Positions 2,531 through 52,053 of a stretch of DNA of 58,027 nt are shown in pieces. How positions within the stretch are numbered: position 1 is the stretch's first letter; each line of letters begins with the position of its first letter. The translations under genes and the position numbers were made by a program. The notes under the pieces are model-generated. The model saw nothing but the letters and a program-made list of their open reading frames with translations. It ran no database searches and was not told the DNA's origin. The DNA comes from Nitrosopumilus sp. Nsub (GTDB lineage Archaea; Thermoproteota; Nitrososphaeria; Nitrososphaerales; Nitrosopumilaceae). The stretch covers positions 33,243 through 91,269 of the forward strand of contig NZ_LQMW01000022.1 of the NCBI RefSeq assembly GCF_001541925.1, read 5' to 3'.

Positions 2531-2812
2531 ATGGTTCTAGTAAATAAAAAAATGTTAGCAGGAGGAATGGCAATGGTGATTGTAGGATTAGTATTTACGA
2601 TCAACATCAATGCTGCAATTCCAGTAGGTCAAGCAGGGATGACAGAAGAAGAAACGTTGGACTTGATGTTGGCTGAACAAGAAAATAAAGATTATGGGAC
2701 ATTAGCAGGAATTTTGTTTGGTTTAGGATTTTTACTAGTCTTGATTAGTTTTGGGGCACGAAGAAAGAAAGGCGACAAACCAACAAAGAATGTAGAAAAA
2801 AAAGTAGAATAG
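2531..2812 (+). CDS. Small membrane protein with two membrane segments, 93 aa
   Basis: The protein has a hydrophobic N-terminal helix (about residues 8-28, AGGMAMVIVGLVFTININAA), a short acidic exposed loop (EEETLDLMLAEQE), and a second helix (about 57-75, GTLAGILFGLGFLLVLISFG). It ends in a lysine-rich cytoplasmic tail. It may be anchored in the membrane with the loop outside. There is no recognisable domain, and nothing in the context identifies its role. Confidence 0.7.
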   Translation: MVLVNKKMLAGGMAMVIVGLVFTININAAIPVGQAGMTEEETLDLMLAEQENKDYGTLAGILFGLGFLLVLISFGARRKKGDKPTKNVEKKVE

Positions 2813-2856
2813 AGATTCTCCGTTTATTTTATACGTTACAACATATTTTGATAGGT

Positions 2857-2972
2857 ACGTTTGATTCCAAAAATCGCGTTAACCAATTCGGGTTAACAAA
2901 ACGTGGTAAATGTAGAACGGAACTCTCCAATCTACATGAGGTTGGTTGAGACTCTTCATCTCACCAATCTCA
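2857..2972. ncRNA. Candidate structured RNA with tandem hairpins
   Basis: Between two plus-strand genes the DNA holds a run of perfect or near-perfect inverted repeats. ACGTTT (2857-2862) with AAACGT (2899-2904) encloses GTTAACC (2878-2884) with GGTTAAC (2891-2897). TGTAGA (2911-2916) pairs with TCTACA (2931-2936), with an inner GGA/TCC. The last hairpin pairs 2937-2951 with 2959-2972: 14 pairs, one G-T wobble, one bulged base and a 7-base loop. No reading frame explains it. It could be a small RNA, a 5-prime leader element of the next gene, or a processing site. Either strand could be the RNA. Confidence 0.55.
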
Positions 2973-3024
2973 CTATTTAGAAAATTATCAAACATTTTAA
3001 GTCAAAATTAATTTGAAACAAGTA

Positions 3025-3330
3025 ATGATTCAAGCAGAAATCAGCATATACCCATTAGCAACAAAAACCACCAGTGTGAGTTTCTACATTGCCAAAGCAA
3101 TAGAATCAATAAAAAATATAGAAAATTTAAGATATGAGATTAATTCTATGGGTACGATTTTAGAATCAAATGATATTGACAGTATCAACAAAGCATCAAA
3201 AAATATGGTAGAAACAGTTCATAATTTAGGAATAAACAGAGTTGAAGTAATTATAAAAATAGATTCAAGGACAGATAAACATCAAAAAATGGAAGAAAAA
3301 ATAGATTCTATAAAAAAACAAATGAGTTAA
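3025..3330 (+). CDS. Thiamine-binding-like protein of the MTH1187/YkoF family, 101 aa
   Basis: The sequence IQAEISIYPLATKTTSVSFYIAKAI and MGTILESNDID matches the small MTH1187 (UPF0045) family, whose members form ferredoxin-like tetramers and bind thiamine or related ligands. I chose the ATG at 3025, which gives the usual MIQAEIS start. A TTG at 3013 would add four residues. The protein is cytosolic, with no membrane segment. Its stop codon overlaps that of mqnE on the opposite strand. The exact ligand is not provable from sequence. Confidence 0.8.
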   Translation: MIQAEISIYPLATKTTSVSFYIAKAIESIKNIENLRYEINSMGTILESNDIDSINKASKNMVETVHNLGINRVEVIIKIDSRTDKHQKMEEKIDSIKKQMS

Positions 3331-51524: not shown

Positions 51525-51941
51525 TTATTTTTTGGATTTAGGTTTGGATTTAGGTTTGGATTTAGGTTTGGATTTAGGTTTGGATTTAGGTTTGGATTTA
51601 GGTTTGGATTTAGGTTTGGATTTAGGTTTGGATTTAGGTTTTGTTGAGGAAATTAAAGACGATTGTTCTTGTAAAATAGTTTTTAATTCATTTTGTATTT
51701 CAAACAAAGAAGTCAACATCAATTCCATAGATTTAGTATAAGCAGAATAAACAGTAAGAAGTTCTGTCTTTTTTTGATCTGTATTTACAAGAAATTCATT
51801 TTTACGCAGTAAATTTGAAGAATCAATTAGTTCAGGCATAGATTCTGGAGAATCAATAGATTCATTCAACTCACGTTCAATTTGGTCAATTTTTTGTTTA
51901 AATCGATACAAATTATCAGTAATTTGAACTTCAGTCAACAT
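51525..51941 (-). CDS. Helical protein with a C-terminal KPKS-repeat tail, 138 aa
   Basis: I start it at the ATG at 51941 ([20 protein letters not shown]), because the longer frame adds a hydrophobic and atypical 27 residues. The body is helical (about residues 1-95, [20 protein letters not shown]). The tail is nine copies of KPKS and a final KK, strongly basic and histone-H1-like. It may bind DNA or RNA. It converges with birA with one base between stops. Confidence 0.7.
51541..51636 (-). repeat. Eight perfect 12-bp repeats encoding KPKS
   Basis: The plus-strand unit GGTTTGGATTTA occurs eight times without mismatch, with partial units at both ends, all in frame with the minus-strand gene. 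Confidence 0.9.
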
Positions 51942-52053
51942 AAAAGAACAGAATAGGAATGAATTAAAGATTTTCGTGAATTTTTTAAAAAAAATTGTTA
52001 TCCAAGTGGGCAAAAATAACAAAGTATAGAAATAAACAAAAAAACAAGAAATA

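Follow-up and report, generated by a model that had tools for sequence, protein, structure and literature searches.

According to a review of archaeal small RNAs from 2012, studies of such molecules had not yet reached any thaumarchaeote (PMC3432209). The archaeal precedents include intergenic small RNAs that bind Lsm, and a small RNA that masks a ribosome-binding site (PMC3432209). The H/ACA guide RNAs are defined by an ANA box located 14-16 nt from the pocket and by a K-turn or K-loop (PMC4652768). Here, we analysed a stretch of 58,027 nucleotides from Nitrosopumilus sp. Nsub (hereafter referred to as the window), in which a short intergenic segment folds into a multi-hairpin RNA. In the literature searched, which was mostly non-subscription, this RNA is undescribed and no Nitrosopumilus small RNA has been reported. 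Comparison with related genomes indicates that it is a real non-coding RNA gene, new to the sources searched, limited to one genus and with an unusual turnover of its genomic sites. It could be described as a free-standing, roaming small RNA gene that has its own promoter and probably acts in trans as a regulator; taken as a whole, we hold this explanation to be evenly poised between right and wrong.

Fold, strand and promoter of the hairpin RNA

A sequence-only reading had placed several stems in segment 2857-2972, the last with 14 pairs and a 7-base loop, and had considered their density to be very unlikely by chance. All of the stems were found at these positions, and the last one has the predicted dimensions. 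The segment has a minimum free energy of -38.2 kcal/mol, compared with -20.4 +/- 3.2 kcal/mol for dinucleotide shuffles (z-score of -5.6), and none of the 200 shuffles was as good. None of the 999 tiles of 116 nt taken across the window in 58-nt steps reaches -38, the best being -33.4. The fold is far better than expected by chance. Of all the window tiles, the folding z-score is most extreme at a 165-aa open reading frame on the minus strand (51525-52022), which ends in a long KPKS repeat tail encoded by the 12-nt tandem repeat GGTTTGGATTTA.

With blastn, many matches of 73-94% identity were obtained in relatives, and in the more distant ones the match is limited to ~2862-2986. Thirty copies were aligned over 134 columns (alignment A1), and the covariance model R1 matches the window at 2858-2984 with 134.9 bits. 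The features of the locus are as follows.

2821-2834, plus strand: BRE/TATA promoter element CGTTTATTTTATAC, with the TATA box TTTTATAC at 2827-2834
~2855-2985, plus strand: hairpin RNA of ~125 nt, the conserved block of alignment A1; predicted 5' end at ~2855 (+/-3) and predicted 3' end in the U-rich stretch ~2975-2985
2856-2905, plus strand: 5' domain, in which P1 closes the two inner hairpins P2 and P3
2856-2862 and 2899-2905, plus strand: P1, the outer helix, TACGTTT with AAACGTG
2863-2866 and 2872-2875, plus strand: P2, GATT with AATC, with the invariant loop CCAAA
2878-2884 and 2891-2897, plus strand: P3, GTTAACC with GGTTAAC
2910-2916 and 2931-2937, plus strand: hairpin II, ATGTAGA with TCTACAT, plus an inner GGA/TCC and a C/U-rich loop
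2937-2972, plus strand: hairpin III, 14 pairs interrupted by one bulge, with a loop of 7 bases (CTCTTCA) at 2952-2958
2972-2986, plus strand: tail after hairpin III, probably the terminator region, ACTATTTAGAAAATT in the window and CRCTTTTGATAAAT in most copies (alignment A1 and tail list)
2995-3000, plus strand: TATA-like element TTTTAA of the thiamine-binding gene, downstream of the RNA and ~27 nt before the ATG at 3025

The stems are maintained by compensation, which is what the sequence-only reading had named as its supporting test. In the relatives, 98.8% of the stem cells are paired and 53 cells are changed on both sides, compared with 19 +/- 3 in shuffles, and the pairing collapses to 37-63% when the partners are slid along the alignment. 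Two-sided changes are found in 4 of 6 pairs of P3, in 2 of 9 pairs of hairpin II and in 2 of 12 pairs of hairpin III; the latter two hairpins are paired in 100% and 96.9% of cells, respectively. P1 reads TACGTTT:AAACGTA in one sequence group and TTGCGT:ACGCAA in the other, a swap of A-U for G-C. A structure supported in this manner is one mark of a stand-alone small RNA. By hand count on the alignment pairing there are 67 G-U cells, which on the opposite strand would become A-C mismatches; G-U pairs are numerous in hairpin III. The plus strand is therefore the one from which the RNA would be read. One copy (G046) has P1 and hairpin II broken and looks decayed.

Upstream of the RNA, TTTTATAC or TTTTTACAT is located ~20-27 nt before the 5' strand of P1 in nearly all copies, with columns conserved up to 85-93%. 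Archaeal TATA boxes are placed at this distance, so the 5' end of the RNA is expected at ~2855. The segment from -60 to -36 has no conserved sequence among the copies, which lie beside different genes. Since the TATA element is kept at unrelated loci, the RNA appears to have its own promoter, independent of its neighbours, which is a second mark of a stand-alone small RNA. RNA polymerase would start at ~2855 from the TATA box at 2827-2834, and the transcript would end past hairpin III, in the U-rich stretch; the short 3' tail is U-rich in most copies. The product would be an RNA of ~125 nt with three structural domains.

Known families and the thiamine-binding gene

Searches of Rfam 15 with the window and a second copy, at gathering and relaxed thresholds, gave chance hits only, and none was above the gathering threshold. 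ARAGORN found neither tRNA nor tmRNA in the window, in agreement with the earlier remark that the element has no tRNA layout. The proposal of an undescribed thaumarchaeal RNA also stands, in view of the covariation, the conserved promoter and the lack of an Rfam match. An unusual H/ACA or C/D RNA that guides the modification of rRNA or tRNA would have a size and hairpin count in the range observed, and Rfam gives snoRNA matches, all of them sub-threshold. However, inspection of alignment A1 by eye revealed RCUUUU after hairpin III and no tandem GA motif, which falls short of the H/ACA features; C/D boxes (RUGAUGA, CUGA) were absent, and the best match to a C/D family in Rfam was sub-threshold. 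Neither an ACA/ANA box downstream of the hairpins nor a K-turn, K-loop or C/D box is thus present in the conserved sequence. Moreover, most of the genus does without the RNA, unlike what would be expected of a guide for a conserved site. We consider a guide RNA to be highly improbable.

In the window clade, the RNA is located between a gene for a 93-aa DUF protein (DUF93) and the thiamine-binding gene. The sequence-only reading had suggested a regulatory leader of this downstream gene, and a cis-acting leader, riboswitch-like or attenuator, would account for the position of the RNA in the window and near relatives, just upstream and in the same orientation. However, in other carriers the RNA adjoins unrelated genes, and most other genomes compared have the DUF93/thiamine-binding pair without the RNA, so that the association with the thiamine-binding gene expected of a cis-leader does not hold across relatives. 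No match to the TPP riboswitch was found down to E=10. The thiamine-binding gene, furthermore, seems to have a promoter of its own. The motif TTCAAA..TTTTTAATC is kept 23-36 nt ahead of its ATG whether or not a genome has the RNA; the TATA-like TTCAAACTTTTTAATC is found ~23-36 nt before this ATG in many RNA-less genomes, and a version of it is retained in the window. Because this element is kept downstream of the RNA, we take the RNA to have been placed ahead of a promoter-like element that stayed intact, and not to be a leader, and the position of the element fits a leaderless mRNA. A leader in the window clade is thus very unlikely, and this suggestion was given up.

Distribution and turnover of genomic sites

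At E<=0.01, the covariance model matches 39 of the 95 Nitrosopumilus genomes, although only weakly in G009 and G052, and 23 of the 56 high-quality genomes of the genus. Across the order, no match was obtained in the 63 other genera sampled. The carriers, which include many Nitrosopumilus sp. MAGs, Ca. N. limneticus, BACL13 and LS_AOA, are marine and freshwater ammonia-oxidising archaea, and the RNA sites differ among them. As a rule, there is one copy per genome. Marine small RNAs were reportedly described by Shi et al. in 2009, and reads of the hairpin RNA could be among them. One contig assigned to a Phycisphaerae MAG (L075) holds the RNA at 140 bits and is probably a mis-binned Nitrosopumilus contig. 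A weak full-length match of the model (G000:C2:39621-39747) falls within the coding sequence of thiC, in sense orientation, and was taken as chance. In the same coding sequence, the RNA's conserved 5' element is found in sense with two mismatches (G000:C2:39727-39743, L220), which was also judged to be chance; near-matches of this element in the genome are at chance level only.

In a second carrier group, the RNA is located between genes that we take to be cobB-like and cobH-like, and further copies occupy many other sites. Most of the compared genomes that lack the RNA between DUF93 and the thiamine-binding gene have these two genes ~40 nt apart; the gap of a minority is occupied by other sequence. 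In five RNA-less relatives (L142, L166, L173, L174 and L178), the equivalent of gap 2812-3013 has other inserts, of ~290-740 nt, and this gap looks like an insertion hot spot. For two copies (G036 and G007), empty sites are seen in related genomes, with the flank conserved to either side; the gaps of these empty sites align too poorly for the junctions to be fixed in a check for target-site duplication. Given the patchy distribution, the decayed-looking G046 copy and the differing sites, the RNA gene behaves as accessory and movable in these sequence comparisons. It may have entered, or shifted to, small intergenic gaps that differ between species, and in other species have been lost or have decayed.

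Such behaviour could also be that of a non-autonomous mobile or selfish element, RNA-only, MITE-like or borne by a virus or integrative element, in which the RNA serves its own spread. On the tree of the CofH-like protein, the presence of the RNA takes 8 changes, at least 6 of which are forced by well-supported branches, and these gains and losses fit a mobile element, as do the sites that differ by species. The RNA distance is low between distant carriers: it is 2-10% among most of the scattered carriers of group 2, which differ by up to 13% in their CofH-like protein. Against a mobile element stand the rule of one copy per genome and the absence of terminal inverted repeats around the RNA unit, a feature of MITEs. 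Viral, phage and plasmid collections gave chance-level matches only (for example L111, a GC-rich contig, at 20.9 bits), and thus no such carrier. In addition, the intergenic gaps concerned evolve quickly and differ between species in the small genes they contain. The turnover of sites is therefore not special to the RNA, and a general turnover of gaps may suffice. We consider a selfish element unlikely. A mobile RNA gene that spreads horizontally among Nitrosopumilus as a minimal transferable unit of promoter, RNA and terminator of ~170 bp, and whose RNA aids its own maintenance or acts in competition or defence, is likewise a doubtful proposition.

Several small open reading frames were found near the RNA. 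A putative membrane protein of 111 aa (L095, L093) is encoded on the opposite strand, 50-391 nt upstream of the RNA and divergent from the promoter region; in one sub-clade it is found with the RNA at two different sites. It was rejected as a required cargo partner, being missing from the window and found elsewhere without the RNA. A CKWC-type 79-aa open reading frame and a zinc-ribbon open reading frame were also rejected as cargo, as they are beside some RNA copies only. In the window, a small zinc-finger gene at 2074-2382 (Pfam zf_Tbcl_2) consists of a single treble-clef finger that has been tandemly duplicated within the gene.

Possible function and comparison with described RNAs

The gene, its fold, strand and promoter element, its independence from neighbours and its patchy spread over many sites are supported by comparative analysis; we infer its transcription, the exact ends, Lsm binding and an antisense mode of action. 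For the free-standing small RNA, the function would most likely be regulation in trans. The exposed C/U-rich loops, ACTC..TCC of hairpin II and CUCUUCA of hairpin III, may pair with purine-rich sites such as GGAGAG and UGAAGAG at the translation starts of mRNAs, and an archaeal Lsm protein may bind the U-rich tail. However, the loops differ somewhat between copies (CTCTTCA, CTATTCA and TTTCAA), which we counted against an antisense seed, as a seed need not tolerate such change. The 5' element UGAUUCCAAAAAUCGCG is invariant, and it is kept in sequence beyond what pairing alone would require. It could perhaps also pair with purine-rich sites; the chance-level near-matches of the 5' element in the genome speak against the antisense mode. 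The main rival to the antisense mode is that the RNA binds a protein through this element, as a decoy or scaffold on an RNA-binding protein. Conservation of UGAUUCCAAAAAUCGCG in sequence is expected of a protein site, and several stems are strongly conserved; however, the K-turn, C/D and H/ACA box motifs were not seen by eye. We hold protein binding to be possible, if on the unlikely side.

A family backed by covariation, with a defined promoter and pairs of species that have or lack it, lends itself directly to study by RNA-seq, pull-down and genome comparison. Its site turnover provides a clean case of an RNA gene that roams between gaps in streamlined genomes.

Three described systems can be compared with the trans-acting small RNA proposed here. 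The TPP riboswitch (RF00059) is similar in being located upstream of a thiamine-related gene, as the RNA is in the window clade. However, the hairpin RNA has no covariance-model match to it, is not in an mRNA leader, and is found beside unrelated genes in other carriers. The archaeal H/ACA guide RNAs (PMC4652768) have hairpins of similar size, but they have the ACA/ANA box, the K-turn or K-loop and the pocket of defined geometry that are missing here, and the hairpin RNA is not universal. The intergenic small RNAs of Haloferax and Methanosarcina (PMC3432209) are similar in several respects: they are free-standing and structured, have their own promoter, measure ~100-150 nt and have a U-rich 3' end. 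The hairpin RNA differs from them in having no sequence or Rfam kinship, in belonging to one thaumarchaeal genus only and in roaming between loci.
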